From positions 28,672-92,671 of the forward strand of contig JANQQQ010000038.1 of assembly GCA_028284935.1 (NCBI GenBank): 64,000 bases of DNA, written 5' to 3'. A program made the position numbers and the translations under genes. How positions within the stretch are numbered: the first letter of the stretch is position 1; each line of letters opens with the position of its first letter. Source of the stretch: Croceivirga sp. (lineage in GTDB: Bacteria > Bacteroidota > Bacteroidia > Flavobacteriales > Flavobacteriaceae). Below are positions 40,960 through 58,700 of this stretch, in pieces. The notes beneath the pieces were generated by a model. The model made no database searches and was not told where the DNA came from. It worked only from the letters and a program-made list of their open reading frames with translations.

Positions 40960-42045
40960 TTGAAACGGCTTATTATTCTTTTTTTCTCAACATGTTGTCC
41001 TTTTGCCCATATCTTGGGTCAGAAGGTCTATGGAATACGAACGGTGGCTTTTTATAATGTGGAAAACCTATTTGACACCCTCAATGATTCATTGGTTTTT
41101 GATGACGAGCGAACACCTAATGGAGCTTATCAATGGACTAGGGAGCGGTATCAAACCAAAATTGAACATATTAGCAAGGTTCTTGCCGAAATTGGACGGG
41201 AAACCGCAAAAACCTCACCTGATATTATTGGACTTTGCGAGGTTGAGAAAATTGGAGTGGTACGGGATTTGATCAATCATCCCAACTTAATTGAAAGGAA
41301 TTATGGCATTATCCATGCTGATTCTCCCGATGAACGGGGTATCGATGTTGCACTGATATTCAAAAAGTCCGCTTTTTTACCAACTTCTTTCAAAAGTGTA
41401 CGCTTGTTGTTATTTGACGATGAAGGGCATAGGGATTACACTAGGGATCAATTGGTTGTTAGCGGGATATTGGATGGGGAAGAAATTAATTTTATAGTGA
41501 ACCATTGGCCCTCGCGCAGTGGGGGGGAATTACGAAGTCGCCCCAACAGAATTAAAGCAGCCCAACTGAACAAGCGAATCATGGATTCCATTCGTTATTT
41601 GGATTCTGGCGCCAAAATCATTTCAATGGGCGATTTAAATGATGATCCCAGGGATTATACCTTAAAAAAGGTGCTGAAGACCAAGGGTAAGAAAAGTCAA
41701 TTGGATAGTTTGGGGTTATTCAATCCCATGGAAAGCATGTACAAAAGAGGTTTTGGAACTCTTGCCTATCGCGATAAATGGAATTTATTTGACCAATTCT
41801 TGCTTAGCACCAATTTAATCAATACGGAAAAGGAAGCATACTCATTTTGGAAAGCTGGAATATTTACCCCTAATTATTTAAGAACCCGGCAAGGAAGATA
41901 TAAGGGTTATCCCTTCAGGACCTATGTAGGCACCACCTACCAAGGGGGGTATTCCGATCATTTTCCTGTGTATATTCATTTGATTCGAAAGATAACAGGA
42001 AAAGACATCGATTCAGAATCAACTAGAAGTAAGAAAGGCAATTAG
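40960..42045 (+). CDS. secreted endonuclease/exonuclease/phosphatase-family protein
   Basis: The 361-residue product has a signal peptide (about 1-20) and the EEP fold. Blocks are VAFYNVENLFDT (metal-binding Asn/Glu), DIIGLCEVEKIG, IVNHWPSRSGGE with a catalytic His, MGDLNDDP and the terminal YSDHFPVYI with the SDH motif. It cleaves phosphodiesters or phosphomonoesters outside the cytoplasm. The start is a TTG; the signal peptide begins right there and no in-frame ATG is available upstream. It pairs divergently with a TonB receptor. Confidence 0.88.
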   Translation: MKRLIILFFSTCCPFAHILGQKVYGIRTVAFYNVENLFDTLNDSLVFDDERTPNGAYQWTRERYQTKIEHISKVLAEIGRETAKTSPDIIGLCEVEKIGVVRDLINHPNLIERNYGIIHADSPDERGIDVALIFKKSAFLPTSFKSVRLLLFDDEGHRDYTRDQLVVSGILDGEEINFIVNHWPSRSGGELRSRPNRIKAAQLNKRIMDSIRYLDSGAKIISMGDLNDDPRDYTLKKVLKTKGKKSQLDSLGLFNPMESMYKRGFGTLAYRDKWNLFDQFLLSTNLINTEKEAYSFWKAGIFTPNYLRTRQGRYKGYPFRTYVGTTYQGGYSDHFPVYIHLIRKITGKDIDSESTRSKKGN

Positions 42046-42349
42046 TTAATGTCCCAATTAAAAGATATGGAAAAAGTGAACAGTCTAGAGAAAAAGTAGG
42101 GACTCTTGCAGATGGATCACTTTTCATTTTGGAGGGGCTCAAATTGCTTGGATAAGGGATACATTAAACATAAAAACATTTGTAAGGACTATTTATATTG
42201 TCCACTAAGTTGTTCAACACCTGCGAGATTTAAAAAAAAGGTCTAATTCTAAGGAGTTTCCAATCTAATGACCAATAAAAATTGGAGTTACTTTTATTTG
42301 AGAATCCAAAAAGGTGCATTTTTGAAATGAAAATTCATGAAAAATAAAA
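42046..42349. other. A+T-rich intergenic region at the left edge of the RiPP island
   Basis: About 300 bp without a gene. Near the right end TTTG is followed after about 16 nt by CATTTTTG, one mismatch from TAnnTTTG, which may be the promoter of the kinase-like gene. I found no tRNA end, inverted repeat or insertion-sequence remnant that would mark an island border. Confidence 0.4.
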
Positions 42350-42916
42350 TTGGAAAAAAATCTAATTATACAATTGTGTGGGTTACCAGGGGTTGGAAAG
42401 TCTTATATCGCCGACAAAATACATGAAGAGTTTGATGATTCTTGTTTAGTTTCCATTAGAAATATAAGGAGAAGTCTAGGGCACAGAGGATATTTTCCAG
42501 ATAGAAATAAAGAGGTCTTTCAAAAGGTGTATGACACCTTTGTTGAAAATATGCAACTAAACAGGTTAATTATATTTGATTCAAATGAAACACAAAAAGC
42601 TAGGAGAATCTATACTGCCAATATGGCGAATAGCTTTTTGTATCAACTAGTTACAATAGAATGCTTTTGCGATGAAACGTTAGCAAAACAAAGGATGTCA
42701 AAAAGAGACTTAGTCGATGATGAATTGTTCGAAGATTCGAACAACCCTACGGTTTATGATACTTTAAAATTGCGATGGCAAGAGATTAGTCAAGAAGAAT
42801 TAGGACTTTCGAACTATTTTTATATGAAGGTGGACACTGGAACCAAGCTTATTTCATGGGAAAAGAAACTTGATAGTTTGGAAGGATTGGATTCCTTTTT
42901 ATTTAAAATTCTTTAA
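42350..42916 (+). CDS. P-loop kinase-like protein
   Basis: The 188-residue protein has a Walker A motif GLPGVGKS at 11-18. Its overall order resembles small ATP-dependent kinases of the AAA_33/adenylylsulfate-kinase-like group: a Arg-rich region (IRNIRRSLGHRG), a Walker B-like IIFDSNE near 75 and a lid with QRMSKRD near 115. The substrate is unknown. The start is TTG 42350; the only nearby ATG (42337) is out of frame and leads to a quick stop. It stands alone, convergent with the unknown gene at 42951. Confidence 0.65.
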   Translation: MEKNLIIQLCGLPGVGKSYIADKIHEEFDDSCLVSIRNIRRSLGHRGYFPDRNKEVFQKVYDTFVENMQLNRLIIFDSNETQKARRIYTANMANSFLYQLVTIECFCDETLAKQRMSKRDLVDDELFEDSNNPTVYDTLKLRWQEISQEELGLSNYFYMKVDTGTKLISWEKKLDSLEGLDSFLFKIL

Positions 42917-42950
42917 TAACGACAATTTTGATGAATAACAAATGAACTTT

Positions 42951-43616
42951 TTACATGCCAACCGGACGAATAGCATCATATAAAATGGCAAACACTATTA
43001 AGTTGTCACAAACTGAATCTTCCAGTGATTGTTGGTTTTTATTTTCAATGGAACCCATCTTAAGTGCATCTAATAAATCGGTACCAGTAAAATAATCATC
43101 ATGTTCAAACAATTCTGTCAGAATGTAATCGAAACTTGAGGGACGAAGTGACAACTCCATATAATCCTGGCATTTAAGAAATGTAGGTCTTATTAGAAAG
43201 GTAAAACGTGTTTTGAATGAACCTTCTAGCAAGGCATTCATATTCCTAAATCTTAAATCTTTTATGTTAATTCGAATACTTTGGACTGTAGCTTTAGGGT
43301 TAAATAAGAAAGGGGCTTCTAAGAGCCTCTCTCTTTTTTGCCTTAATAAATCATGAACTTTTTTTAGACTTAAAGTTCTTTCCTTAAACAAATTTTTAGC
43401 ATCCATTTTATTTAAATGGTTATACACAAAGTATTCATAGTTGTATACTTCTCTAATAAGCTGGCTTTTTTGGGCACTCAGGTTTTCTGAAAAAAAACTA
43501 TCCCAAAAGTCGTAATTCGTAAAGGGTTTTGTTAATACTGTTTTCTGGGACTTTCCGAGTTTGTTCATAACATGGACTGTTCTACTAAAATCCCTTGAAC
43601 TTCTTTTGGAGATCAT
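42951..43616 (-). CDS. unknown protein of the RiPP-linked operon
   Basis: The 221-residue soluble protein is basic and helical at the N-terminus (FSRTVHVMNKLGKSQKTVLT), with no recognised domain, signal or membrane helix. It overlaps the preceding DUF6734-type gene by 4 bp and so is its translational partner. The aromatic and Lys-rich composition fits the A+T-rich island. No function is proposed. Confidence 0.6.
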   Translation of the reverse strand: MISKRSSRDFSRTVHVMNKLGKSQKTVLTKPFTNYDFWDSFFSENLSAQKSQLIREVYNYEYFVYNHLNKMDAKNLFKERTLSLKKVHDLLRQKRERLLEAPFLFNPKATVQSIRINIKDLRFRNMNALLEGSFKTRFTFLIRPTFLKCQDYMELSLRPSSFDYILTELFEHDDYFTGTDLLDALKMGSIENKNQQSLEDSVCDNLIVFAILYDAIRPVGM

Positions 43617-44524
43617 AAAGTATTATTGAGTAGTAGGTGCTGAGCTTCTGGTAAAATCTTTTGTAACCTATCGTAAACATTGGGGAAATGTGCCTTAAGG
43701 TTGAGTAAAATCAACTCAGCTATTAGTTCATTTTTTTTTGCGGAACCAACTATATGAACGTACTTAGATTTAAAAGGGGCATGATGTAATTTCAAAACTT
43801 CCTGAAAATCATTCGAAATAGTGTCAAACAAATAGCTGACCTTAATATCATAATAGCTAACGAAACATTTAAGTAAGAACTGTTCGAAAAAATGATTGAT
43901 GTATGGCGTTCTTTTTTTTAAGAGAAACTTTTGGTTTTTTAATACATAAGTCAATGCGGAATTGGCATATTCCTTGATGAATTTAATATTATTTCCACCA
44001 AAGACCCCCATGTTAATTCCTTCAAATTGGTGACTCTCTTCAAAATAGGGTTTGACTTCCTTGGGCATTAAGGCGATACCGTCTAAAAATGTTGTGTAAA
44101 GGTTATGATACAAACCAAAGTTTTCCTCACGATTTTGAGCAAAGATTTCACCGGCAAACAATTCGCTATTAAGTTTTTCCCAAATAAAAATATCTCCGTC
44201 CATATGAATAAAGGGAACTTCTTGAGATTTGTAAACGAATAGCTTTCCGGCCGCCCAAAAAGAACTGTCAATAGTGTAAATCGAATCAAAAACTTCATGG
44301 CAATTTTCATAAGGAAGCTCTAAGAGATCAATTAAAACTCTTTTTCCAAAACCATCAGTATAAAGGTTCAGATTCTGATAGCACTTTTGTATGCTCATGG
44401 CGCTTAAGGCCCAGCTAGCCAAAAAGGTTTCGAAATCTGGCCATCCTCCAATACTGACGGTATCTCTGTCAATGTGTTTTGCATTCAACAAAGGTTTGGA
44501 CCAGAAGCTTTGTACTATTTTCAT
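43613..44524 (-). CDS. DUF6734-type glycosyltransferase-like protein
   Basis: The protein of about 303 residues starts MKIVQSFWSKPLLNAKHIDR and has an alpha/beta pattern. It contains VPFIHMDGDIFIWEKL, where DGD resembles the DxD sugar-nucleotide and metal site of GT-A glycosyltransferases, and later FEGINMGVFGGNN. It reminds me of the DUF6734 family seen in Bacteroidota natural-product loci (from memory, not searched). If active, it might glycosylate the peptide or a wall component. A TTG 12 codons earlier is an alternative start. Confidence 0.55.
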   Translation of the reverse strand: MKIVQSFWSKPLLNAKHIDRDTVSIGGWPDFETFLASWALSAMSIQKCYQNLNLYTDGFGKRVLIDLLELPYENCHEVFDSIYTIDSSFWAAGKLFVYKSQEVPFIHMDGDIFIWEKLNSELFAGEIFAQNREENFGLYHNLYTTFLDGIALMPKEVKPYFEESHQFEGINMGVFGGNNIKFIKEYANSALTYVLKNQKFLLKKRTPYINHFFEQFLLKCFVSYYDIKVSYLFDTISNDFQEVLKLHHAPFKSKYVHIVGSAKKNELIAELILLNLKAHFPNVYDRLQKILPEAQHLLLNNTL

Positions 44525-44608
44525 GTGATTTTCAACAAGAAAAGGATTGATTTTGTACAAATACCATAATTCTGTTAGGCCTGTTCAAAGCGGTGTTATT
44601 TACAACTT

Positions 44609-45370
44609 TTATTGGTTAGTCCCAGGTTTTCTTGCAGTTGTGTACATTTTACAAAACTCTGTTTCCAGTTCGCTGTATCCCTGTTTATGGTATTCTTGTA
44701 ACCTTTTTAATCCCATATTGAAACTCTCAGGACTTACTAGATGTAATTGGGAATAGTTCTTAACCTGGGCTTCTTGAATTGCCTTTTCAAAACTTATTGA
44801 GAAGATTTGTTCCTCAAAATAACTTTTGTGATCAAAACCAATTTTTGAGAGTAATTCCGATAATTGGTCGAGCTTTAAAAAACGCTTGACATCTTCTTCA
44901 TAGCTATTCTTGAAATATTTATAGATCCAAGATTCTCTCATTTTAAAGGGATAAATGGAATTAATATGGTAAATTCCATTCGACTTTAAGACATTGAACA
45001 CTTTTTGGAACCCTTCTTCCTTATCCATGAAGTGATGATATGAATGATTGCAAATTACATAGTCAAAATAGTTATGTTTAAAGTTTAAGGACTCAGCGGT
45101 GCTTTCAAACAATTGGACATCTTTAAGTTTGGATTTTGCTACTTGCAGCATTTTTGGGCTTGGATCAACGCCGTACCACTGTACTCGATTCTCATTATAA
45201 AATTTCTGTTGTTGTTTTAAATAATTACCAGTACCACAACCCAGATCCAAAATCCTCAGCCCCTCTTTATTTTTAACCAGTTCACTTATTATTGGGTCTT
45301 TGATTGAATAATGTCGAGATTCCGTCTCATCATAACTTTTGGCAATATTTTCATAGTTTGTCTTTTTCAA
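44609..45370 (-). CDS. class I SAM-dependent methyltransferase
   Basis: The 253-residue product has a Rossmann fold with motif I LDLGCGTGN (41-49), an acidic strand end in WYGVDPSPKML and the FDYVICNHSYHHF post-II block, as in small-molecule methyltransferases of the Methyltransf_11/25 type. The acceptor is unknown. It starts 2 bp after the nucleotidyltransferase stop. An 84-bp gap separates it from the DUF6734-type gene. Confidence 0.87.
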   Translation of the reverse strand: MKKTNYENIAKSYDETESRHYSIKDPIISELVKNKEGLRILDLGCGTGNYLKQQQKFYNENRVQWYGVDPSPKMLQVAKSKLKDVQLFESTAESLNFKHNYFDYVICNHSYHHFMDKEEGFQKVFNVLKSNGIYHINSIYPFKMRESWIYKYFKNSYEEDVKRFLKLDQLSELLSKIGFDHKSYFEEQIFSISFEKAIQEAQVKNYSQLHLVSPESFNMGLKRLQEYHKQGYSELETEFCKMYTTARKPGTNQ

Positions 45371-45372
45371 CT

Positions 45373-46125
45373 CTAAATGGATTTTATTGTAAAACTTTTC
45401 ACATTAATTGTATTAAAAGTGGTCATCACGTGTTTAAAAAGTGTATCTAGTTCCTTTTTGTCAACTGCTAAGATTGCATTAACAAAAAGTTGTTTAAACG
45501 TTTCATCCTCAAGATTTTCCATAAAATGTTTTTCCCTAAATGGATTGGAGAAGAAAAATTCCTCCAACTTATCCTCCAAAATATGTTCATTACCCGATAA
45601 AACCGAATAGCAGTTAAGCAAATGGCTTAGTACGGAATAGTAGTTATACTTAAAAAACCTGGATTCAACATCCATTTGTTTCACTTTTTTAAATTGATTG
45701 GAAAGGGCATACAGTCTCGCTACTTTCTCATTCTCTTTTAATGGCTTGAAGGGTGTTTCCATAATCACACCTGCCCGTGTGATAAGAGATCTTGTTAGTT
45801 CACTAAAACCACCTATTTCATAGATAATCTTGGAGGCAGCAAAAATTCTGGCTTCAAATTTAGACTGATTAACAAACTGATCATTAAATAGCTGGGCATA
45901 TTTGAGATGGCCGGCGGCGAAATAGGAGATATCTTTCCCTCTAATATTTACCACTCCTCTTTCATAAATAGGCTCCTTGCTTTTAACCACCACCCTAATA
46001 TCGACATCTGAAGCAGGAAGAGGCTCACTGTGCGCATAACTGCCACTTAAAACTATTCCCTCCACCAATAATCTTTGTGAGATATTGGTTCTGAATTCAT
46101 TCAGTATTTCTTCAAGAGGGTTCAT
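45373..46125 (-). CDS. nucleotidyltransferase-domain protein
   Basis: The 250-residue protein carries the polymerase-beta-like nucleotidyltransferase motif GSYAHSEPLPASDVDIRVVV: GS at 28-29, then D40 and D42 as metal ligands. A helical C-terminal half follows, as in antibiotic nucleotidyltransferases and minimal nucleotidyltransferases. It could transfer a nucleotide to a small molecule or protein. It is first gene of the four-gene minus-strand set and begins only 30 bp from the divergent lanC-like gene. Confidence 0.75.
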   Translation of the reverse strand: MNPLEEILNEFRTNISQRLLVEGIVLSGSYAHSEPLPASDVDIRVVVKSKEPIYERGVVNIRGKDISYFAAGHLKYAQLFNDQFVNQSKFEARIFAASKIIYEIGGFSELTRSLITRAGVIMETPFKPLKENEKVARLYALSNQFKKVKQMDVESRFFKYNYYSVLSHLLNCYSVLSGNEHILEDKLEEFFFSNPFREKHFMENLEDETFKQLFVNAILAVDKKELDTLFKHVMTTFNTINVKSFTIKSI

Positions 46126-46130
46126 TTATT

Positions 46131-46138
46131 TAAGTTTG
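46131..46138 (+). promoter_or_regulatory. promoter box upstream of lanC (TAAGTTTG)
   Basis: TAAGTTTG matches TAnnTTTG, 18 nt before the lanC-like ATG, in the 30-bp divergent gap. It would drive lanC and lanB, which are 13 bp apart. The -33 element would lie inside the start of the opposite gene; no clear TTG is seen there. Confidence 0.5.
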
Positions 46139-46155
46139 AATGAAATTAAAAAATA

Positions 46156-47349
46156 ATGGAACACTTAACTACAAAGACAAGGGAAAAGCTTGAAGAAATA
46201 AAGGAAATTCTAATTAGTGAAAAGGTTAAAGGGAACTCACTATTTGATGGAAGAACAGGAGAACTCCTTTTTTTGTTCCATTACTATTATTACGTAGACC
46301 AGCAAGAAAAGGTATTAAGCTTTGCCTATCATTTAATGAATGAGGTTTTTGAATCATTAAGTAATGAACATTTTAGCTTCAGTTCGGGGTATGCAGGGAT
46401 AGGTTGGTTTTTAGAATACTGTACAGAAAAAAACTGGTTGGAGATCAACACCAATGAGGTATTGGAAGATGTAGATAAAATGGTCTATCAACTAAGTATT
46501 TATGAGCTTCAAAAAGGAAACTATGACTTTTTGCATGGGGCTATGGGCGGGGGGCTTTATTTTCTTTCAAGAAGTGGTAGCCCTCTAAGGGAGGCATTTA
46601 TGGAAGCCTTGGTTTTGGGTTTGGAAGAAATTGCAGAGGAAGAATCTTGTTTTGTCAAATGGCCTTTTTACAACTTTTCCGAAAGAACTAGGGACTTAAA
46701 AACATTTAATCTGGGAATGTCCCATGGTATTCCAAGTATTGTCGCCTTTTTATCCTTGTTATCAAAAGAGGGAATTCACGAAGATGTTTGTTATAGGTTA
46801 GCCAAAAAGGCAATAGATTTTATAGAATCAAACGAAATCGATTTTAACCAGTTCAATTGCCACTTCCCAAATTCAATCCGGGAGGGCGTATTTCAAAAAA
46901 GTCGACTAGCTTGGTGTTATGGTGATCTTGGATTGACCTGCGGGTTATATCATTTTTCGAATAGCGATAAAAACCAACAGAGTTTACTGAGCAAAAAGAT
47001 CCAAAAAATATTGGACAATAATGCTGATAGACGAAATCTATTGAAAAATAAGGTGTGGGATGCAGGTTTGTGTCACGGAGCTTCAGGAATTGCACACATA
47101 TTTAACAAAATGTACAAGAGAATTGGTAAAAACCAATATCGGGAAGCTGCTGAATATTGGTTGAAGCAAACCTTATTATTTGCGAGCTTTGATGATGGAT
47201 TGGCAGGCTTTAAAGCATACGATTCTGTAAAAGACATCCACTATAACAATAGAGGGTTTTTGGAAGGAATATCAGGAATTGGACTTGCCTTGATCAGTTT
47301 TCTAAAAAGAGAAGAATTGGATTGGGATAGGGCATTATTAATTTCTTAA
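46156..47349 (+). CDS. lanC: lanthionine synthetase C-like cyclase
   Basis: This 397-residue protein has the alpha/alpha toroid pattern of LanC with repeated G-x-x-G blocks: GYAGIGWFLEYC, LHGAMGGGLYFLSR, MSHGIPSIVAFLS, CYGDLGLTCGLYHF and CHGASGIAHIF. The zinc ligands are all present: C254 in AWCYGD, and C306 and H307 in GLCHG. LanC adds cysteine thiols across dehydroalanine or dehydrobutyrine to form thioether rings. Its pairing with the LanB gene 13 bp downstream defines a class I lanthipeptide locus. An intact zinc site suggests that real cyclisation occurs. Confidence 0.93.
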   Translation: MEHLTTKTREKLEEIKEILISEKVKGNSLFDGRTGELLFLFHYYYYVDQQEKVLSFAYHLMNEVFESLSNEHFSFSSGYAGIGWFLEYCTEKNWLEINTNEVLEDVDKMVYQLSIYELQKGNYDFLHGAMGGGLYFLSRSGSPLREAFMEALVLGLEEIAEEESCFVKWPFYNFSERTRDLKTFNLGMSHGIPSIVAFLSLLSKEGIHEDVCYRLAKKAIDFIESNEIDFNQFNCHFPNSIREGVFQKSRLAWCYGDLGLTCGLYHFSNSDKNQQSLLSKKIQKILDNNADRRNLLKNKVWDAGLCHGASGIAHIFNKMYKRIGKNQYREAAEYWLKQTLLFASFDDGLAGFKAYDSVKDIHYNNRGFLEGISGIGLALISFLKREELDWDRALLIS

Positions 47350-47362
47350 AATCTGGGTACTG

Positions 47363-50300
47363 GTGAATTATTCATTTTTTGACAAGTTTGTAATTAGGAC
47401 TCCAATAAAACCTATACAAAACGATTTAGGGGAAGTAGACAAAAATAGCATTCTTGATTTTTTTAAGGGGAAAGAGGGTAAAGAAGCGCTTTACCTTGCC
47501 TCTTTCGATTTATATAATGAACTAGAAAAATATCTAGTAGGAGAGTTTAATAATGATAAGGAAGATAAGTTCATTGAATCACTTTATAAATATTATTTAA
47601 GGATACATTACAGAACAATCCCATTTGGTTTGTTCGCTTCATGTGGCGTTGGAAAATGGTCCGAGGAAACTAAAATTAATATGCAATATAAAGATGGATT
47701 TTATCGACACACTAGGCTCGATATGTCCTTTATGTTTTCCCTAACTAAAATGCTCGAAAGATTCCCACAACTTCAAATATTTCTGAAATATACCCCAAAC
47801 AATAGTATTTACCACTTAAATGAACAGATTAGGTATACGGAATACGTGTATAGGGGGGCGAGAAGGAGCTTTCAACTGAATTCAGTTAATGAGGATTATT
47901 ACTTAAAGAAAACGCTTTCCTTTGCTGAATCAGGAAGACTCAAAAAGGAACTAATTAAAAACTTGCAAGATGATGATATTAGTCAAAGTGAGGCAACTGA
48001 ATACATTGAGGAATTAATCGATTCGCAGGTTCTTACTAGCAACTTAAACCTTGGTATTACCGGTAAAGACCCCCTCTTAAAGATAATCGACTTTTTATCT
48101 CAATTTGAAGAAAAAAGTTCAGAAGTCAAAAAACTGTATTTTATCCTTTCCCAAATTCAGAAAAAACTAAACAAGCTTGATGAAAATAAATATAACGATA
48201 TCTCTGCCTACAATGAAATTGTGGTCTTGGTTTCTCAGCTGGGGATAGATTTTAATAAAAGAAGTCTTTTTCAGGTTGACTCTTATTATGAACCAAAATC
48301 GAATTTGACCATTTCTAAAAAGGTATTAAAGCAACTAAAGCAGTGCCTTTATTTTTTCATGAATTTAAATGAATCTCCAAAAGACTCAGAGCTGGATAAT
48401 TTTGCTAAAGCCTTTTATAAAAAATATGAAGATCAAGAAATTCCTATGGTGGAAGCCTTAGATGACGAAATAGGAATTGGATTTCCGTTAAAAAAGAACT
48501 CAAGAAAAGATGAACCGATTTTAAAGGACTTGTCTTTGCCAAACTCTTCAACAACTAAAAATAAACTTCGTTGGGGGAAGAATGAGCAAAAAATATTTGA
48601 TTGTATTTTGGAAGGATTGAGGGCCAACCAAACAAGTATAGATATCTCGAAAATTGATTTTGATACGACTTCCAAAGTTGCTTCGGCCCAAATGCCAAAT
48701 ACATTTTCATGTGATTTTAGTTTGATTGAATCAAAAAAAGAACACAATCCCTTGATATATCTCTCTGCTTTTGGTAATGTTAGTGCTACAAGCTTGTTAG
48801 GGAGATTTACCTACGGGAATAAAAATATTTTAGGCCTCGTAGAAGACATTGTTTCTAAAGAAGAAGACATAGACCATGGTAACATTGTTGCAGAGATTGT
48901 ACATCTGCCAGAGATTACCAGATTGGGCAATGTTTTGATTCATCCTGCTTTTAGAACCTTTGAAATTCCTTATTTGGCCTCACCGTCAAAGCGTGCAATT
49001 GCTATTTCAGATATTTTGATAAAGGTTTATGGCAATGGTCAAATTGTACTTAGGTCAAAGCAACATAACAAAGAAATAATTCCAGTGTTAAGTAATGCCC
49101 ACATGCTCTCTGGAGGCTTGCCCATTTATCGTTTCTTGGGGGCAATGCAATCTCAAAATAAATTGCGGACCATTTTCTTTAATATTGGAGGGAACCAAAG
49201 CATATTTAGTTTTATCCCAAGAATTCAATGGAATGACATTATCTTAAGAAAAGCTACTTGGCAACTTCGGAAAAGTGATTTTGAGGGACTCATAAAAAAT
49301 GGCGGTGATGTGAAATTAAGGTTACTTGCTTTTAGGCAAAAGTGGAATCTTCCAAATCAAATATATTATTTGGAAAGGGATAACAGACTGTTTATTGATT
49401 TTACAAATGAACTTTCACAATCATTGTTTATAAATACGATTAAAAACAAAAAAAGTATCCTCTTAGAAGAATTTCTTTATGATTCTAAATTCAATCCTGT
49501 CTCTGATAGCAAGGGAAATGTTTTTGTGAATCAGATAATTGCAAGCTTATATAAAAATGTTCAAACCTCAAGAAACAATAAGAATGCTAACAATCCAACC
49601 ACTTCAAAAAAAATAAGGAGAAAGTTCGCTCCAGGTTCTAAGTGGCTCTACTTTAAAATCTATTGTGAGCCGAAAATTACAGACCATGTTTTGATTACGG
49701 TCCTTCGCCCCCTGATAAGAAAATATCAGAAAAATAAATGGATAAAAAGGTGGTTTTTCTTACGCTATGATGATTCCGAACACCACATAAGGATAAGGTT
49801 TGAGGTTGCTTCCAAGGAAAATATTGCTTCAATTATGGAAACCATGAACAAAATAATTTCAAAAGATATTGAAAATAGAAGTGTAAATAAAATTCAACTA
49901 GATACTTATAATAGGGAATTGGAACGCTATGGTCCGCTCACAATGGAACTTTCAGAAGAATTATTTTGTTTAAGTAGTACCAACACTTTGGAGTTTCTAA
50001 ACCTTTATTCTAAAAAGCATTTATCTGACGAAACAAGATGGTTATATGCAATAGCTAGGGTAGATACCTTTTTGGACGCTTTTGCTTTTGATTTAGAGAA
50101 GCGCAAGGCAATTTTGAAGGTCATGAAAGACAGCTTTTCCATGGAATTCAAAATGGATAAAAGATTGAAGCGACAAATGGATGGAATTTATCGGAAATAT
50201 TCTAAGGAAATTGAGAATTGGATAAACAAAAAGAATTTTACCGTAGCCAAGAAAGTGCTCACCTATGAAAACGAAGAATTTACAATGGGAAATATTGCCT

Positions 50301-50488
50301 CAAAAATATTGACCATATTGGATGATAAAAATTCTGAGTTAAATCTTGAATCCTTTATTATTAGTCATGTTCATATGATTATCAATAGAATTTCCAAATC
50401 AAATCCCAGATTGTATGAACTACTGATTTATTATCTTATGGACCGTTATTATGGTTCTGCATTAGCAAGGAGAAAGTATCATTCTTAA
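47363..50488 (+). CDS. lanB: full-length class I lantibiotic dehydratase
   Basis: The 1041-residue enzyme has the N-terminal glutamylation domain (about 10-690). Conserved patterns there include IRTPIKP, RTIPFGLFASCGVGKW and RLDMSFMFSL. The C-terminal SpaB_C elimination domain (about 755-1035) contains WLYFKIYC, RWFFLRYDDSEHHIRIRFEV and YNRELERYGPLTMELSEELF. LanB uses glutamyl-tRNA to glutamylate Ser and Thr of the precursor and then eliminates glutamate to give dehydro residues. The two activities are joined, unlike the split LanB of some Bacteroidota clusters. The start is GTG 47363. An 81-bp gap separates it from the precursor gene. Confidence 0.93.
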   Translation: MNYSFFDKFVIRTPIKPIQNDLGEVDKNSILDFFKGKEGKEALYLASFDLYNELEKYLVGEFNNDKEDKFIESLYKYYLRIHYRTIPFGLFASCGVGKWSEETKINMQYKDGFYRHTRLDMSFMFSLTKMLERFPQLQIFLKYTPNNSIYHLNEQIRYTEYVYRGARRSFQLNSVNEDYYLKKTLSFAESGRLKKELIKNLQDDDISQSEATEYIEELIDSQVLTSNLNLGITGKDPLLKIIDFLSQFEEKSSEVKKLYFILSQIQKKLNKLDENKYNDISAYNEIVVLVSQLGIDFNKRSLFQVDSYYEPKSNLTISKKVLKQLKQCLYFFMNLNESPKDSELDNFAKAFYKKYEDQEIPMVEALDDEIGIGFPLKKNSRKDEPILKDLSLPNSSTTKNKLRWGKNEQKIFDCILEGLRANQTSIDISKIDFDTTSKVASAQMPNTFSCDFSLIESKKEHNPLIYLSAFGNVSATSLLGRFTYGNKNILGLVEDIVSKEEDIDHGNIVAEIVHLPEITRLGNVLIHPAFRTFEIPYLASPSKRAIAISDILIKVYGNGQIVLRSKQHNKEIIPVLSNAHMLSGGLPIYRFLGAMQSQNKLRTIFFNIGGNQSIFSFIPRIQWNDIILRKATWQLRKSDFEGLIKNGGDVKLRLLAFRQKWNLPNQIYYLERDNRLFIDFTNELSQSLFINTIKNKKSILLEEFLYDSKFNPVSDSKGNVFVNQIIASLYKNVQTSRNNKNANNPTTSKKIRRKFAPGSKWLYFKIYCEPKITDHVLITVLRPLIRKYQKNKWIKRWFFLRYDDSEHHIRIRFEVASKENIASIMETMNKIISKDIENRSVNKIQLDTYNRELERYGPLTMELSEELFCLSSTNTLEFLNLYSKKHLSDETRWLYAIARVDTFLDAFAFDLEKRKAILKVMKDSFSMEFKMDKRLKRQMDGIYRKYSKEIENWINKKNFTVAKKVLTYENEEFTMGNIASKILTILDDKNSELNLESFIISHVHMIINRISKSNPRLYELLIYYLMDRYYGSALARRKYHS

Positions 50489-50569
50489 ATTAATAAAATT
50501 TTCCTAAAATTATTTTGATTTAGAGAAAATATACGTAGTTTCCTTGTACTATTCACAAAATATAAAGCC

Positions 50570-50878
50570 ATGAAAAAACTGAAATTAAAAAAGATTAAGA
50601 TTGGGCAGCTCTCCGACATGGATTTGGAAAGTGTAAAGGGTGGTTATGGCCATACTTGGACATGTACCCAGCCACAAAATTGCGGAGGTGGTACCGGAAC
50701 CGGATACAATACCAATAGTGGATGTGGTGGAGGTGGAACCGGGAACGGATGTGGCGGTGACTCCTCCAATACAGATTGTGATCCTTACTACTCCCGGTGG
50801 GGCTGTGGCTCCGGCAGCGGTTGCGGCGGTGGTGGTCCTAGGGGAACGGGTGGCCACAACGGATGGTACTGCACTTAA
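50570..50878 (+). CDS. lanA: lanthipeptide precursor with double-glycine leader and Gly/Cys-rich core
   Basis: The 102-residue peptide has a basic leader of 25 residues (MKKLKLKKIKIGQLSDMDLE, then SVKGG), ending in the double glycine cut by C39 peptidases. The 77-residue core holds 8 Cys, 10 Thr, 6 Ser and 27 Gly. A GCGGGG block occurs twice (SGCGGGGTGNG and SGCGGGGPRGTGG), and the core ends WYCT. There are twice as many Ser/Thr as Cys, so up to eight thioether rings are possible plus unpaired dehydro residues. The core is G+C-rich (33 of 60 bases at 50701-50760), unlike its neighbours, because of glycine codons. It does not resemble a known lantibiotic that I can recall. Confidence 0.87.
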   Translation: MKKLKLKKIKIGQLSDMDLESVKGGYGHTWTCTQPQNCGGGTGTGYNTNSGCGGGGTGNGCGGDSSNTDCDPYYSRWGCGSGSGCGGGGPRGTGGHNGWYCT

Positions 50879-50904
50879 TTTAGGGTGATTTAGCATTTTA
50901 CTTA

Positions 50905-51003
50905 TTATGCTTATAGCATAAATCGTGGTACTACTGCTCTAAGTTATACCTAACAATACAACAAAATAAGCCTTGCCTAAGAATTCTGGCAGGGCTTATT
51001 TTA
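50905..51003 (+). terminator. hairpin and terminator after the precursor gene
   Basis: A 6-bp hairpin (TTATGC 50905-50910, GCATAA 50916-50921) comes first. About 42 nt later a 14-bp stem (50964-50977 with 50988-51001, one G-T pair) is followed by a T-rich tail. It lies between the precursor and the exporter gene, so it should cut most precursor transcripts short of the exporter, leaving the exporter to read-through or its own promoter. Confidence 0.85.
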
Positions 51004-51123
51004 TTGCCAAATTTAGATTGTACTTGGTTTGAAATTTCTATGTTTAGCCCAAATACGGTTTCATTTTACACTATTTTCTGTACAAACATTCAAATACTTT
51101 TATCTTAAGCAAAATATTTAGAA

Positions 51124-53319
51124 ATGTCTTTTAAGAAGTTTCCGTTCTACAGACAATTAGACAGTATGGATTGCGGACCAGCATGCCTTAGAATGATTTC
51201 CAAGTACCATGGAAAATCATATACGCTGGAGTATCTTAGGAGCCTAGCCAACTTAACCCGAGAAGGAGTAACCTTGGGGGGGATAGCAGAAGCAGCGGAA
51301 GAAATTGGTTTTAGAACGATTGCCGCAAAGGTCGACATTTCGACCTTGGAGAAAGAAGTTTCCCTCCCCTGTATTGTACATTGGCGCAAGAGACATTTTG
51401 TGGTGGTATACAGGATTTCTGGTAGCTACATATATATTGCGGATCCTGCGCACGGCCTTTTAAAGCTTGTTAAGGCAGAGTTCCTTAAGGGTTGGTTGGA
51501 TACAGAATCAAAGGAAGAGGAAGGTTACGTTCTATTATTAACGCCAACTTCCGAGTTTGTTGAAGGTAAATTGGAAGAAAAAAACCGATTAGGATTCAAA
51601 TTTCTATTTTGGTATTTTACTCCATACAAAAAGTTTATTTTACAGCTGGCTCTAGGTTTGCTCGTTGGAAGTTTCTTGCAGTTGATATTTCCTTTTCTTA
51701 CTCAAGCAGTTGTAGATTATGGAATTAATTATCAAAACTTAAATTTCGTTTATCTAATTCTTTTTGCCCAATTAACACTTTTTATTTCCCAGACAACTGT
51801 AGGGCTAATTAGAGGATGGATTTTATTACATATTACCAGTCGAATAAATATTAGCCTGATATCAGATTTTTTGATTAAGCTTATGCGCCTGCCAATTGCT
51901 TTTTTTGATTCGAAGAACACTGGCGATATCATACAGAGGATTTATGACCATAATAGGATACAAAGTTTTTTATCAAATACAACTTTGAATACACTTTTTT
52001 CGGCGTTCAACCTTATAATTTTCGGCGCGATACTAGCTTTTTACAGTCTTGAGATTTTCATCATTTTTTTAACAGGCTCTGTTGTTTACGTAGGTTGGAC
52101 GATTCTATTCCTAAAGAAAAGGGCAGAACTTGATTATAAACGTTTTGATCACTCTGCTGAGAACCAAAGTACCATCTATCAATTAATCTCTGGGATGCAA
52201 GAAATTAAATTAAATGGATCTGAACGTCGAAGAAGATGGGAGTGGGAGGCTATTCAGGTCAGATTATTTAAGGTTTCTGTAAAAGGGTTAACGCTTTCGC
52301 AAACACAAAATACCGGAGGTCAATTTTTCAATGAACTCAAAAACATCTTAATCACTTTTATAGCCGCCAAATCTGTAATTGATGGGAACCTTACGCTTGG
52401 AATGATGTTGTCTGTACAATACATTATAGGACAGCTTAATCTGCCTATAAACAATTTCATTTCATTTATTCAAGCAGGACAGGATGCTAAGATAAGTTTA
52501 GAAAGGTTAGCAGAAATTCACACAAAGGAAGATGAAGAAAGCGAAGCGAATACCATAAAGGAACTACCGCAGGGTGGTGATATTAATATTAATGGGCTAA
52601 GTTTTCGTTATGGGGGAAGGAGTTCTCCGCTTGTACTAAAAGACATTAATTTAACGATTCCAAAAGGTAAAGTAACAGCTATTGTTGGTGCAAGTGGAAG
52701 TGGTAAAACAACCCTAATAAAACTATTGCTAAAATTTTATCACCCTACCGAAGGAAATATCTCAATTGATAGGACAAATCTCAAAAACATACGAACAAGT
52801 TTTTGGAGAAAAAAATGTGGTAGTGTTATGCAAGAGGGATTCATTTTTGAAGATACTATTTCCAGAAATATAACAGAGTCAGATTCTGGTAGAACGATTT
52901 CTACAAAAAAACTATTGCAAGCTATTGACATAGCGAATATTCTGGGATTTGTGGAGCAATTACCTTCAGGAGTAAACACCAAAATTGGCGTTAGTGGCAC
53001 TAATATCAGTGGTGGCCAAAGGCAGAGGATTCTATTGGCCAGAGCGGTCTATAAAGACCCCAAATACATCTTTCTTGATGAGGCTACGAGCTCTTTGGAT
53101 GCAAATAATGAAAAAGCAATTATGGATAAAATGCAAAAATTCTACTCGGGCAAGACAGTAGTCATAGTTGCACATCGCTTAAGTACTGTGAAAAATGCAG
53201 ATCAAATCGTTGTTTTGAATCAAGGAGAAATTGTGGAACGGGGAAATCATAACCAACTCACCAAAAGAAAAGGAATATATTATTCCCTTGTAAAGAATCA
53301 GCTGGAGTTAGGTAACTGA
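51124..53319 (+). CDS. lanT: peptidase-containing ABC transporter (C39 bacteriocin exporter)
   Basis: The 731-residue exporter has an N-terminal C39 peptidase with Q11, C17 (DSMDCGPACLRM), H91 and D107. Six membrane helices follow (about 160-430), then an ATPase: Walker A GASGSGKTT near 521-530, signature ISGGQRQ near 628, Walker B YIFLDEATSSLD near 648 and the H-loop VIVAHRLST near 682. It cuts the leader after Gly-Gly while exporting the core. C39 exporters usually accompany class II lanthipeptides; here one is joined to a class I LanB/LanC system, as in other Bacteroidota. Confidence 0.95.
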   Translation: MSFKKFPFYRQLDSMDCGPACLRMISKYHGKSYTLEYLRSLANLTREGVTLGGIAEAAEEIGFRTIAAKVDISTLEKEVSLPCIVHWRKRHFVVVYRISGSYIYIADPAHGLLKLVKAEFLKGWLDTESKEEEGYVLLLTPTSEFVEGKLEEKNRLGFKFLFWYFTPYKKFILQLALGLLVGSFLQLIFPFLTQAVVDYGINYQNLNFVYLILFAQLTLFISQTTVGLIRGWILLHITSRINISLISDFLIKLMRLPIAFFDSKNTGDIIQRIYDHNRIQSFLSNTTLNTLFSAFNLIIFGAILAFYSLEIFIIFLTGSVVYVGWTILFLKKRAELDYKRFDHSAENQSTIYQLISGMQEIKLNGSERRRRWEWEAIQVRLFKVSVKGLTLSQTQNTGGQFFNELKNILITFIAAKSVIDGNLTLGMMLSVQYIIGQLNLPINNFISFIQAGQDAKISLERLAEIHTKEDEESEANTIKELPQGGDININGLSFRYGGRSSPLVLKDINLTIPKGKVTAIVGASGSGKTTLIKLLLKFYHPTEGNISIDRTNLKNIRTSFWRKKCGSVMQEGFIFEDTISRNITESDSGRTISTKKLLQAIDIANILGFVEQLPSGVNTKIGVSGTNISGGQRQRILLARAVYKDPKYIFLDEATSSLDANNEKAIMDKMQKFYSGKTVVIVAHRLSTVKNADQIVVLNQGEIVERGNHNQLTKRKGIYYSLVKNQLELGN

Positions 53320-53323
53320 TATA

Positions 53324-54640
53324 ATGAAAATAAAAATGGAAAGTGAACACGAACATTTGTTTTCAGAAGAAAGATCTGATATGGTAAGAGATATTTTAGG
53401 AAAACCTCCCAATTGGGTTGTTCGTATTGGTATCACTGTTGTTTTTGTTGTTGTAAGCCTTCTTTTTATAGGCGCCGCAGTGTTATCTTACAACGATATT
53501 ACCACTGCAAGGATAACAATAACAAGTAAGAACCCCCCAATTTATTTAAAGGCAAATGTTAGTGGGAGATTGACTAATGTTCTTGTAGAGGAGAATCAAT
53601 ATGTTGAGGAGGGACAGATATTGGCAGAAATTGAAAACACGGCCAATTTTGAAGATGTCCTTTTTCTCAAAAGACAGCTTGAAAATTTTAACCCAGAAAA
53701 TAAAACTTTGGATTCCTTAAAGAAAGAGTTTCCTTCGAGCCTAAACCTTGGAACCATGCAACTGGCATATATAGAGTTTTTAACTAAATTTCAAAACTTT
53801 ATGTTATTTAAGGCCTTATCTCCGAACAAGAAGGAATCCCAAATAATCCTTCAGCAGTTAAAGGAGCAAAAGACTTTTTTATCAAAACAAGAAGATCAGA
53901 GAAAAATACTGGAGGAGGATTTGGAACTTTCAAAAAAGACCTTTGAACGAAGCTCATTTTTGCACAAAAAGGGCGTTATTTCCCAAGCGGAATATGAAGA
54001 GGCTTCAAGGTCTTACTTGTCGGACAAACAGCGGCATGAAACTTTTTTAGGAGGAATTTCCAATACCCGCATAGCGATTGCCAATTTCAATAGTTTGCTT
54101 ACCAAGTCAACCATTCAAGGAAAGGAGTTCCAAAGCAACTACAGACAGGGAATAGACAATGCTTTACAATCCTTATCCAATGAGCTATTACTTTGGGAAC
54201 AACGTTTTTTGATAAAAAGCCCCATTGATGGTAAAGTGACAATATTTGATATTTGGAGTACATTTCAGAATGTCGAGGCTGGGGAAGTCATTTTCACGAT
54301 TGTGCCAATCGACATCGATAAAATAATAGGACGACTCACATTACCAATTCGGAATTCCGGTAAGGTTAAGGAAGGTCAAAAGGTGATTGTAAAATTGGAT
54401 AATTATCCATTCGAAGAATGGGGAAGTTTAGAAGGAAGAATCATCAGTATATCCGAAGTCCCAAAACTGAATCAAGTTGATGAATACACGTTGTATGTTG
54501 AGATTGATAATTTGAGAACTTCTTACAATAAGACCATTGAATTTAAACAGGCTATGCAAGGATCAGCCGAAATAGTGTTGGAGGAACTTACTTTGCTTCA
54601 AAGAATCCTTTATCAGCTAAGAGGTCTTTTTTCAAGATAG
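53324..54640 (+). CDS. HlyD-family membrane fusion protein
   Basis: The 438-residue adaptor has an N-terminal membrane anchor (about residues 28-53, WVVRIGITVVFVVVSLLFIG) and a biotinyl-lipoyl-like segment (about 70-108, ANVSGRLTNVLVEENQYVEE). A long coiled coil (about 110-270) leads to a second half of the lipoyl hairpin (FLIKSPIDGKVTIFDI) and a beta-barrel. It would bridge the C39 exporter to an outer-membrane TolC-type channel. It begins 4 bp after the exporter stop. No TolC gene is in the window. Confidence 0.92.
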   Translation: MKIKMESEHEHLFSEERSDMVRDILGKPPNWVVRIGITVVFVVVSLLFIGAAVLSYNDITTARITITSKNPPIYLKANVSGRLTNVLVEENQYVEEGQILAEIENTANFEDVLFLKRQLENFNPENKTLDSLKKEFPSSLNLGTMQLAYIEFLTKFQNFMLFKALSPNKKESQIILQQLKEQKTFLSKQEDQRKILEEDLELSKKTFERSSFLHKKGVISQAEYEEASRSYLSDKQRHETFLGGISNTRIAIANFNSLLTKSTIQGKEFQSNYRQGIDNALQSLSNELLLWEQRFLIKSPIDGKVTIFDIWSTFQNVEAGEVIFTIVPIDIDKIIGRLTLPIRNSGKVKEGQKVIVKLDNYPFEEWGSLEGRIISISEVPKLNQVDEYTLYVEIDNLRTSYNKTIEFKQAMQGSAEIVLEELTLLQRILYQLRGLFSR

Positions 54641-55191
54641 ACACAAAATATCATATTCCTAGCTAGCTAGTTCTGGAAGGGAATTTTTTCTTTTTCAAAA
54701 ATCCTTCCCTTAGCAAAGGGCCAATTAATTTTCCAAAGATTACATAGAAATATCATATTTATGTGCTCAAAATATTTAGTTCTTTTAAAAGAACAAGGGT
54801 TTAGTCAGTCATGGTATGCAGTTTTGAAATTTGAATAATCCTGAACATCCTGAACTGTGAAGTTGGAACCCACAATCATTTAAGTACCTTGTTTTGCGCC
54901 CTCTTAAGAGAATATGGGAATCCTTTATTTCAGATGTTCCGGGTTTTTTCCACTTCGATTTTCTTCTGTACGTTTGGGATTTCCCTTGTTGGGCAAGAAG
55001 TTCCAGCTTTGCTTCCGGTTGTACAACTGAATTCCCTAAGAACTTCTGCATTGAAGTCCTTGCCATGCCCCAGTCTTACAACCCAATTTGAAGAATATGT
55101 TGTACTCTTGTTTTTGGTTCTGACTTATTGCAAGTTCAGTGTTATTGATAAATCCGTTTTTATACCTCGTTCTAGTCAGATTAAATAAGTA
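54641..55191. other. intergenic region at the right edge of the RiPP island
   Basis: About 550 bp without a supported gene. It contains a 12-bp direct repeat AAATATCATATT (54646-54657 and 54748-54759), a bulged hairpin with its T-run inside the stem (54675-54710), and two overlapping open frames on opposite strands (54889-55188 plus, 54809-55066 minus). Neither frame resembles a known protein or has a convincing start context. This may be decayed DNA. Confidence 0.4.
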
Positions 55192-55629
55192 CTATTGAAA
55201 CCACTGCCCCCAAGGAATACGACTTAAAATCAAAATAAGCCCAGCACCGTACATTAGCCCAATTCTTCTGAATTTTACAGTAGAATCGTCCGTTTTTTTA
55301 TGGCGGGACCACCCAACCGTAATGAGCGCAATGGCCAAAATATTGATAAAGGGGTGCTCAACTGCCAACAACCGCGCTGCTGAATTCAATCCACCCATGC
55401 CCAAGGTTTGGATGGCCTTTAACCCATTGGCCGAAACAAAGAAAACGATCAACCCTATGACCAATTGCAAATGGCTTAAAACCAGGGCAAAAAGACTTAA
55501 TCGTAAATCCTTGTCAAAACGAAACTCTTTTTTGGTCAACCAGCCAATAAGCGCATTGGCCGTGGCAATGATTAATATAATCAAAACAATGTAAGCAAAA
55601 TAAGAGTGGAGGGTTTTTAGGATTTCCAT
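55192..55629 (-). CDS. small four-helix membrane protein, possible heme-binding
   Basis: The 145-residue protein has four transmembrane helices (about 8-28, 44-65, 90-107 and 123-140). H8, H53, H92 and H110 lie near helix ends or within helices, a layout compatible with b-type heme binding (inference). Related proteins in this phylum are sometimes mislabelled as a ribosomal protein; nothing ribosomal is visible. It is followed by no clear terminator and lies downstream of the Oar-like gene's terminator. Confidence 0.65.
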   Translation of the reverse strand: MEILKTLHSYFAYIVLIILIIATANALIGWLTKKEFRFDKDLRLSLFALVLSHLQLVIGLIVFFVSANGLKAIQTLGMGGLNSAARLLAVEHPFINILAIALITVGWSRHKKTDDSTVKFRRIGLMYGAGLILILSRIPWGQWFQ

Positions 55630-55668
55630 GGTGTTCGATTAAGAGCTAAAAGTAATGATTTTAGAAAA

Positions 55669-55701
55669 GAAAAAGGCCCCCGACATTGATGCCGAGGGCC
55701 T
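55669..55701 (-). terminator. terminator of the Oar-like receptor gene
   Basis: On the minus strand GGCCCTCG pairs with CGGGGGCC (one T-G pair) around a short loop, followed by five T. A 29-nt T-rich stretch lies between the stop codon and the stem. Confidence 0.85.
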
Positions 55702-55729
55702 AAAAACTTAATTAAACTAAACTATATTT

Positions 55730-58700
55730 CTAGTTGAAGCTATATCTAATTCCTAATTGCATTTGCCACCTTGAAGAAATATTTTCGGCATCATCGATGA
55801 CATTATTTGTTTCTTCGACCCCGGGGTCGAATGTAAACTCTGGGGTAGTACCATCAGCAGCAAACCCTTCAAAGTTCAAAAGTTGAACCTGATTGAAGTT
55901 GGTGAATGTTCGAACACCCCAATCTTTATTCAATAAATTGGTAAAATTGAATATATCTGCAGTCAATTCCAACCTATGGATGTTTTCACCAAACTTGATT
56001 CCAAACTCTTGGGCAAACTTTAGATCGATGATGTGCGTCCAATCCGTACGAGTTGCATTACGTTCGGCAAATTGACCACGACGACTCCTTAAGTATTCAT
56101 CACCCTCTATTACGGCGTTAAGAGCAGTCCATTGGTCCGCTGCCGATAGCACAAGATTACCGTCTCTGTCGAAATTATCTACCAATAATGCTTCAGTCTC
56201 ATTTCTGGGAACATAAATCAAGGCAGAGAAACCTCCCGTATCTTCCAAAAGACCACTACCCGTGTAAACATAACTAAATGGTGTCCCTTCCGCTCCCTCG
56301 TAGAAAAGACCTAAACGGGTTTTGACCGTTTCGGACCACTTGTAAATAAATGTAGAATTGGCGATGATTCGATGTCCTGGTGAGAAATCAGATGTTGATA
56401 GAACGGGCCTATTCGATCCATTTACTGTTTCCAAAAATCGCCATTGTGAACTGTTCTGTGAAGACGTACCATCAAAGATGCCATCAGCCTCACCATAGGA
56501 ATAGGATACGGAAGATGTCACATCCAAATTAGGACTAAAGAAGTTTTTGGTCAAGGTTCCTGCAATATTATAAGAGCTTCCTTCACTTGTATTGGAAGCC
56601 AAGTAAATGGCAGGATATGTAGAATCAATTCTGCCAAAACCATAATTGGGTCTAGACCCTGCCCCGGTAGTAGTGAATTCTGGTGCTGGAAGGTTTAGGT
56701 TTTCATAAAACACAGCATTCACATTATCATTCCATATAAAATCTGCTGAGAAAATCATGTCCCAAGGTAACCGCTGATCTACAGCAATGTTCATTTTAAA
56801 AACCTGCGGAAGTTTAAAATCTTTCGCAAACAAGTCAACCTGGCCACCAACAGCACCCGATCCCTGTGGGGGGTCCTGAAGCTGGGTGTTGGGGTTAGGA
56901 TTGAAAGCGGGCACATCATCCCCAAATAATTCAGTAAATCCAGTTGAGATTCCGTTGTTGTTGTATTGGGCCCCTGGCCATACCAAAGGAACCCTAGACG
57001 TGAAAATTCCCAATCCTCCTCGTATCTGCGTAGATTTATCGCTGTTCACATCCCAGTTAAATCCAACCCTTGGTGAAAAATGTACATTGGCATCAATGCT
57101 TTCCCCTACACGGGCACCTTGCAAATCTTTACCGGCTGCTTCGAGCAGCGGGATTGTATTTGTATTAAATTCCACGTTTTCCCTTCCATCTTCCCAATAT
57201 GGAATATCAATACGGGCGCCCATTGTAAATTTAAAATTATCGGTAATATCAAACTCATCCTGAACATAAAGACCAAATTGGAAAATATTGAACTCCGCGG
57301 CACCTTCCGAATCATCTCCAAATCCACCAATTAGGGAATATCCATGTCGATACCTGTTCGCCAATTCGCCATCAAGGAAATCATCTAAACTACTATATCG
57401 ATAATCACCAAAATTTTGACGGAAGAACACATTCCTTACCGAGCCAAATTCATTGTTTGTACCAATGGTAATAGTATGCCTTCCAGAATAGATTTGGAAA
57501 TTGTTGGTCAAGGTCAAAATATCTTGATCCAACACATTGGCGGTAGAAAAAGGTTCTGAACCAAAAAATATGGAAGTTCCTGCCGCGTCAAAAATTTGAA
57601 CTGAAGGAAATGCATCTCCTATAGGATCCCTGTTATCCCGAACACGGGTGTATCCTAAAACAAAATTGTTGGACATATTACTTCCAATTTGGGAGTTCAG
57701 TTCCAAAGCAGATGAATTGGTGATGGACTCAAAATCGATAGATCGATTTAAGAAGTTAATGGAACCTGGATTTGAGCCAGCGGCATTGAACTGAACGGCA
57801 TTGACATAGCTATGTCGAAATGAAAGTTTGTTTTTTTCATTAATGTTCCAGTCAATTTTCGCGATTAATTTATCACTCGTAAGGGATGCAATACTATTGC
57901 CGAAAGTTCCTGGGTTATAACCGAAATTGTTCGTTAAGAAGTCAGATAAACCATTCAAATCAGACTCCGTGGCATCCCCTCTGTAGGTGGTAATATCAAA
58001 CGGTTGGGGTGTTTCATTTTCTTGTCTCTCATAGTTCACAAAAAAGAACAGTTTATTCTCAATTAGTGGTCCACCCAATCGAACCCCATAAGTGTTTGCG
58101 GTAAACTCGTCCAGTTTTTCCCGTTCCCCATCATCTCCTATCAAACCAACGGGGGTTTTGCCCGCAAACCCCTCATTTCTTAGTAAGACATAGGCTGAAC
58201 CTATAAATTCGTTGGTCCCTGATCTAGTATTGGCATTGATACTACCCCCGGCAAAACCGGATTGACGAACATCAAAAGGAGCTACGTTGATCTGGAACGT
58301 TTCGATAGCATCCAATGATATTGGGCTTACACCTGTCTGCCCTCCATTGGTCCCTGAACCTGCCAATCCAAAAACATCATTATTGATAGCTCCGTCAATA
58401 TAGATAGCATTGAATCGATTGTTCTGACCACTTATTGAAATACGATCGTCCCCGGTGACCCTTGCTTGTGGGGTCAACCTAGCAAAATCGGCAATATTAC
58501 GTGAAACAGAAGGCAAATTGTTTACCTGTGTTGAGCTCACGTTAGTTTCGGCACCTGTTTTTCCAGAATCAAATAATCCTCCAGATTGGGCAACTACTAT
58601 AACTTCATCAAGGGCAGTAGCAGATTCTGAAAGTTGTACACTTATGCGTTCTGTAGCTCCCAAATTTAATAAGATACCATCTCTTACATCGTCATTAAAT

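Follow-up and report, generated by a model that had tools for sequence, protein, structure and literature searches.

An inserted block of about 13 kb in the genome of Croceivirga sp. quite probably carries the genes of a class I lanthipeptide pathway: a LanB would dehydrate a precursor peptide, a LanC would close its rings and a C39-type exporter would cleave and secrete it. As judged from the genes, the product would be a lanthionine-ringed, C39-processed and possibly glycosylated peptide, whose role in competition or signaling between bacteria is only presumed. The window, that is, the whole stretch of DNA analysed, is 64 kb long, and the features in question are the following:

42046..55191, no strand: inserted A+T-rich stretch (flank genes adjacent in congeners; G+C 32-38%)
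42350..42916, plus strand: P-loop kinase-like protein (AAA_33; PF13671, 39.2 bits, cut-off 27), matched in 0 of 120 LanB loci
42951..43616, minus strand: DUF6734 partner protein, 221 aa (no Pfam match; partner HMM)
43613..44560, minus strand: DUF6734 protein (PF20508, 270.5 bits, cut-off 27), predicted GT-A glycosyltransferase
44609..45370, minus strand: SAM methyltransferase (PF08241, 75.7 bits), matched in 1 of 120 LanB loci
45373..46125, minus strand: nucleotidyltransferase-domain protein (PF01909, 31.9 bits), matched in 0 of 120 LanB loci
46156..47349, plus strand: LanC cyclase (PF05147, 143.6 bits; zinc ligands C254, C306 and H307; aligned to 8byk_A)
47363..50488, plus strand: LanB dehydratase, one 1041-aa chain with fused glutamylation and elimination domains (PF04738 and PF14028)
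50570..50644, plus strand: precursor leader with LxLxKx5L motif and Gly-Gly end (sequence; leader HMM, E = 6e-5)
50645..50878, plus strand: precursor core of 77 aa and stop codon; 27 Gly, 8 Cys, 6 Ser and 10 Thr by composition count
50959..51006, plus strand: strong hairpin between the precursor and exporter genes (fold of 50940-51040: -27.9 kcal/mol, z -4.16)
51124..53319, plus strand: C39 peptidase-ABC exporter (PF03412, PF00664, PF00005; C17, H91, D107)
53324..54640, plus strand: HlyD-type periplasmic adaptor (PF13437)

The island occupies a site that is empty in all ten congeners, so that a single genome of the 11 compared within the genus has it. The endonuclease gene on its left and the gene for a 145-aa membrane protein on its right are convergent neighbours in 10/10 congeners, their stop codons overlapping by 4 bp (five genomes) or lying 5-60 bp (four) or 515 bp (one) apart, whereas 13,146 bp lie between the two genes in the window. 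The earlier note had suggested acquisition on the grounds of A+T-richness and had called for a synteny comparison. The base composition is confirmed and the suggestion supported: the seven 2-kb bins covering 42001-56000 have 32-38% G+C and the other bins of the window 37-44%, and the synteny comparison, now run, finds the island missing from the matching site of each of the ten congeners. The evidence supports 42046-55191 as an insertion acquired as a block, the gene order of the congeners doing so better than base composition. Given the ten empty sites, the lanthipeptide cluster resides in the genome as a single inserted block.

With respect to signs of a mobile element, no convincing direct or inverted repeats were found at the island borders, no integrase among the ten island proteins scanned and no tRNA gene in the 64-kb window. 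An Rfam scan gave no match at the gathering threshold, and a scan for defence systems with PADLOC gave partial matches only. The approximately 550 bp between the HlyD gene and the right flank (54641-55191) contain only short ORFs of doubtful meaning, for instance 54809-55066 on the minus strand, and may be what is left, in decayed form, of the element that brought the island in.

LanC, LanB, the precursor, the exporter and the adaptor form a row on the plus strand from 46156 to 54640. The earlier note had described these genes as contiguous, with an intact zinc site in LanC, a full-length LanB, a double-glycine precursor, a C39-peptidase ABC exporter and a HlyD adaptor, and this description is upheld by the domain matches and residues given here. 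The three putative zinc ligands of LanC align with the WCYG and CHG motifs of 8byk. LanB is a single chain in which PF04738 (401.3 bits, cut-off 28) and PF14028 (205.9 bits, cut-off 24.4) are both found. By alignment with hand-counted positions, NisB R83, R87, D121, D299 and R464, which we take to be glutamylation residues, correspond to R80, R84, D120, D306 and R481, and NisB R784, R786 and R826, presumably elimination residues, to R810, R812 and R855; all eight are invariant across 18 aligned full-length LanBs, that of the window included. A separate LanC with a Cys-Cys-His zinc site and a LanB with both domains characterize class I lanthipeptide systems. Against the lanthipeptide reading counts Ile86 of the window LanB, at a position where at least 90% of the 18 aligned LanBs have Thr (NisB T89).

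The precursor ORF (50570-50878, plus strand, 102 aa) begins with a 25-aa leader whose last two residues are GG, MKKLKLKKIKIGQLSDMDLESVKGG, and continues with the core. The LxLxKx5L motif of the leader reads LKLKKIKIGQL. When a leader HMM trained on LanB loci other than the window was run against the 537 window ORFs of 30-200 aa, the precursor ranked first (the runner-up having E = 2.6), so it is more than a chance ORF. HMM and motif together place the leader in the family used by LanB loci, another class I trait. However, NF038153, the NCBI model of class I lanthipeptide leaders, scored 13.8 bits, below its cut-off of 22, which counts against the lanthipeptide reading.

The core was compared with others from 69 of the 120 LanB loci, giving 139 distinct cores in all, although some loci overlap and a few cores may be false. 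It is the longest (77 residues, the next having 62) and the richest in glycine (35%, next 33%, median 8.2%), and it is among the six with at least 8 Cys. Milder glycine-rich cores are present in L096, L098, L111 and L131, so that the 77-aa core is the end of a continuum; the statement of the earlier note that the core is very unusual stands as regards its extreme position. Locus L111 carries at 12759-13019 a precursor with a 61-residue core, 10 Cys and the stretch CGTNGCGTGNCGTGGC, beside LanB, LanC, HlyD and C39-ABC genes. A word-based search of 5.8 billion proteins, in which shared 5-residue words were needed, gave 126 candidates for relatives of the 77-aa core, none with E<=0.1. Therefore, no conserved ring pattern can be read from it, which is a further point against the lanthipeptide reading.

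The exporter combines a C39 domain with ABC membrane and ATPase domains, as in C39 peptidase-containing exporters (PCATs), and matches structure 4ry2, presumably PCAT1, with E = 7.3e-106 over residues 4-724. C17, H91 and D107 are, we assume, the catalytic residues of its C39 domain. The hairpin upstream of the exporter gene is likely a terminator or processing site and, as a terminator, would likely separate expression of the precursor from that of the exporter genes; a simple terminator scan limited to loops of 3-8 did not list it. As the earlier note had stated, LanFEG, two-component regulator and TolC genes are lacking among the ten island proteins scanned. Neither an immunity gene nor a regulator was recognised among the same ten proteins, and the lack of a recognised immunity gene counts against the lanthipeptide reading.

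According to the proposed pathway, LanB, which is inferred from its residues to depend on glutamyl-tRNA, would load Ser and Thr of the core with glutamate and then eliminate it, and LanC would likely add the eight Cys to dehydro residues to form thioether rings. Because Ser and Thr (16) outnumber Cys (8), several dehydro residues might remain outside rings, as they do in the Chryseobacterium and Runella peptides (PMC9993889). The C39 domain is predicted to cleave after Gly25, and the product would leave the cell by way of the ABC exporter, HlyD and a TolC-type outer-membrane protein presumably encoded elsewhere. DUF6734 and its partner may add a sugar to the same peptide.

This last step is more doubtful, and concerns two of the minus-strand genes at 42951-46125, which lay outside the discussion of the earlier note. 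The DUF6734 protein, whose translation likely starts at 44524 (Met13), is predicted to be a GT-A glycosyltransferase: its model has the GT-A fold, with a modest TM-score (0.44 by model length) in the best Foldseek row. A candidate for the GT-A DxD motif, D109 and D111 in P0085 numbering, is invariant in 29 sequences. As for the partner, an HMM of seven partners from other genomes ranks 42951-43616 first among the 76 window ORFs of at least 100 aa (E = 7.1e-5, next 0.76); its structure predicted from the single sequence has a pLDDT of 34.9 and carries no meaning. The idea that long DUF6734 proteins are fusions of DUF6734 and partner obtained an hhalign probability of 0.9% (E 0.026, 165 columns). 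DUF6734 was found in two plasmid records and in no phage, and the literature search found the name in no paper.

The neighbourhoods of DUF6734 were examined at 22 stretches, all the places found in 249 family and 395 class genomes with the window left out. Genes for LanB, LanC or C39-ABC are present in seven (L222, L224, L228, L231, where the DUF6734 copy is interrupted by stops, L253, L254 and L255) and in none of 20 random stretches (one-sided Fisher about 0.006, hand calculation), the controls coming from six genomes, several case loci sharing genomes and some case stretches being shorter than 19 kb. Counting C39-VKOR proteins and leader-HMM matches as well gives 11/22 against 1/20, the one control scoring by the leader HMM alone; this count is biased because the C39-VKOR queries were taken from two of the case loci. 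Pfam scans of four C39-VKOR proteins placed C39 above the cut-off in L223, L224 and L225 and below it in L226. A pattern search run without a control found candidate GG-leader precursors adjoining DUF6734 in L222, where the candidate is also glycine-rich, L223, L225, L226, L227, L249 and L252. DUF6734, partner, LanC and LanB lie in a row on one strand, DUF6734 upstream, in congener G007 (L101), and on an Emticicia plasmid DUF6734 adjoins a VKOR-family gene, with a lantibiotic dehydratase approximately 3.5 kb away. LanB is present in 7 of the 11 family genomes with DUF6734, in five of them at a separate place.

Other features of these loci were also observed. DUF6734, partner and C39-VKOR genes are arranged like an operon in L223, L225, L226 and L227, and close to them lies a small peptide with a GG leader and many YYC motifs; L225-L227 share the stretch YYCGAYYCANVNP. 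Distant DUF6734 proteins occur in L229, L230 and L232, and the neighbours in L229 and L232 resemble, by eye, phage-tail or contractile-injection parts. Tyr makes up on average 10.8% of the DUF6734-adjacent cores (n=10) and 1.9% of 135 others (Mann-Whitney p 3.5e-6; n=8 and p 7e-5 minus two near-copies), in a post hoc comparison in which the DUF6734-linked cores were chosen by a loose pattern and by eye and ORFs of L255, L236, L224 and L250 and a second ORF of L226 were excluded. Most of the signal is due to the C39-VKOR loci together with L249 and L252; Tyr amounts to 2.8-6.5% in the four LanB/LanC-linked cores, and the difference is a lead only.

The GT-A fold, the invariant DxD, the 7/22 against 0/20 loci and the gene order in G007 are the grounds on which we tentatively propose that DUF6734 and its partner could tailor the precursor with a sugar. 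Against this step count the 11 of 22 DUF6734 loci without a RiPP gene by the test used, the presence of DUF6734 in only 2 of the 120 LanB loci, and its position here with the partner on the strand opposite to LanC, with the methyltransferase and nucleotidyltransferase genes in between. The opposite strand and the 11 of 22 loci also suit a reading to which we give an even chance, namely that the lanthionine part stands and DUF6734, partner, methyltransferase, nucleotidyltransferase and kinase are separate cargo with another target, such as a cell-surface glycan. All of these except the kinase lie on the minus strand, the methyltransferase was matched in one and the nucleotidyltransferase and kinase in none of the 120 LanB loci, and the nearest folds of DUF6734 include glycan-building transferases such as LgtC. 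However, the excess of lanthipeptide and exporter genes near DUF6734 over the controls, the run in G007, the candidate precursors at seven loci and the dehydratase on the Emticicia plasmid speak against such a separation. The nucleotidyltransferase was rejected as a conserved partner: only two of 249 family genomes carry it, the present one and G211, where the copy is 28% identical and lies approximately 63 kb from the LanB of that genome. A broader proposal seems rather unlikely at present: DUF6734 and its 205-233-aa partner would be an unrecognised Bacteroidota RiPP module in which a glycogenin-like GT-A enzyme glycosylates Cys/Tyr-rich GG-leader peptides, yielding here, with LanB and LanC, a long glycine-rich glyco-lanthipeptide.

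Other readings concern the lanthionine part itself. The precursor might be exported mostly unmodified and serve as a peptide or scaffold rich in disulfides and glycine, with LanB and LanC acting on few residues or none. The eight Cys and 35% Gly of a core with no recognisable ring pattern would suit such a peptide, as would Ile86 at a nearly invariant Thr position of LanB, but LanC, LanB and precursor follow each other directly on one strand, the catalytic and zinc residues of both enzymes are kept and the leader is of the family used by LanB loci, so we regard this as improbable. A silent or decaying cluster without a product appears more improbable still: although no immunity gene or regulator was recognised among the ten proteins scanned and the presence in one of 11 genus genomes suggests a recent, possibly transient gain, all core genes are full-length open frames with their active-site residues kept. 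Least credible is that the core is a substrate for azoles or azolines, as its glycine-rich runs around Cys and Ser/Thr recall those of the azole/azoline peptide microcin B17, since LanB and LanC adjoin the precursor and no YcaO match was found in any of the 38 contigs of the genome (99.99% complete) by a search that was positive in 5 of 14 control genomes.

The class I lanthipeptide pathway remains the preferred reading. In its favour, LanC, LanB, GG precursors, C39-ABC and HlyD also occur together in, for instance, L096, L098, L099, L101, L103 and L111. Scanning genome contigs for LanB with a single query sequence gave no relative, and with a multi-sequence alignment gave 457, of which the best 80 were kept; a LanB match was obtained in 36 of 397 family genomes, this one included, with two candidates scored per genome. 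Three of the ten congeners (G001, G003 and G007) have another, split LanB with 33-37% identity, and the best LanB relatives in a large protein database reach 36-37%. In the six best matches among the 120 LanB loci, identity is 72-74% for the exporter, 54-62% for HlyD, 33-35% for LanB and 34-40% for LanC, indicating far more divergence, or exchange, in the enzymes than in the exporter.

Genomes of Bacteroidota encode many lanthipeptides, of which few have been produced. The present cluster would offer a test of how the two enzymes cope with a core in which 16 Ser/Thr and 8 Cys are embedded in glycine, the extreme among the cores compared. Should the DUF6734 module act on such peptides, DUF6734 would no longer be a domain without a function and could serve as a genomic marker for glycosylated RiPPs throughout the phylum. 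A limited literature search found neither a class I core like this one nor a class I glyco-lanthipeptide of the long glycine-rich type.

Several known systems resemble the island. ChmABC of Chryseobacterium and RuiABC of Runella limosa are also Bacteroidota LanA/LanB/LanC systems, whose peptides, according to PMC9993889, were found by mass spectrometry to be 7-fold dehydrated and to carry three rings in E. coli, which also speaks for the lanthipeptide reading; the core of the island offers up to 16 sites for dehydration. Locus L203 of R. limosa DSM 17973, which we take by name to be the Rui locus, has LanC, LanB (31% identical), C39-ABC and HlyD matches and no DUF6734 match. Pinensins of Chitinophaga are class I peptides of Bacteroidetes too, but the pinensin LanB is split (PMC7268733), and membership of that family was rejected because the window LanB is a single chain. 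The aci lanthipeptides of Acidobacteriota share with the island a glycine-rich precursor and lanthipeptide enzymes, but have a class III synthetase (PMC13083261); glycine richness alone is therefore not new. With respect to DUF6734, glycogenin, like other GT-A glycosyltransferases, is a distant likeness, with 14-17% identity in the glycogenin matches.

The closest likeness is to the Bacteroidetes clusters of Walker et al. (2020, PMC7268733), which, like the island, combine the class I enzymes LanB and LanC and a C39 protease with GG leaders bearing the LxLxKx5L motif. The earlier note was thus right that class I enzymes are combined with class II-style export in this phylum and that the cluster is of this type; its description of the cluster as new has to be restricted, because the architecture is already published there. 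Compared with those clusters as described, the island goes further at two points, its extreme 77-aa, 35%-Gly core and its DUF6734 module.
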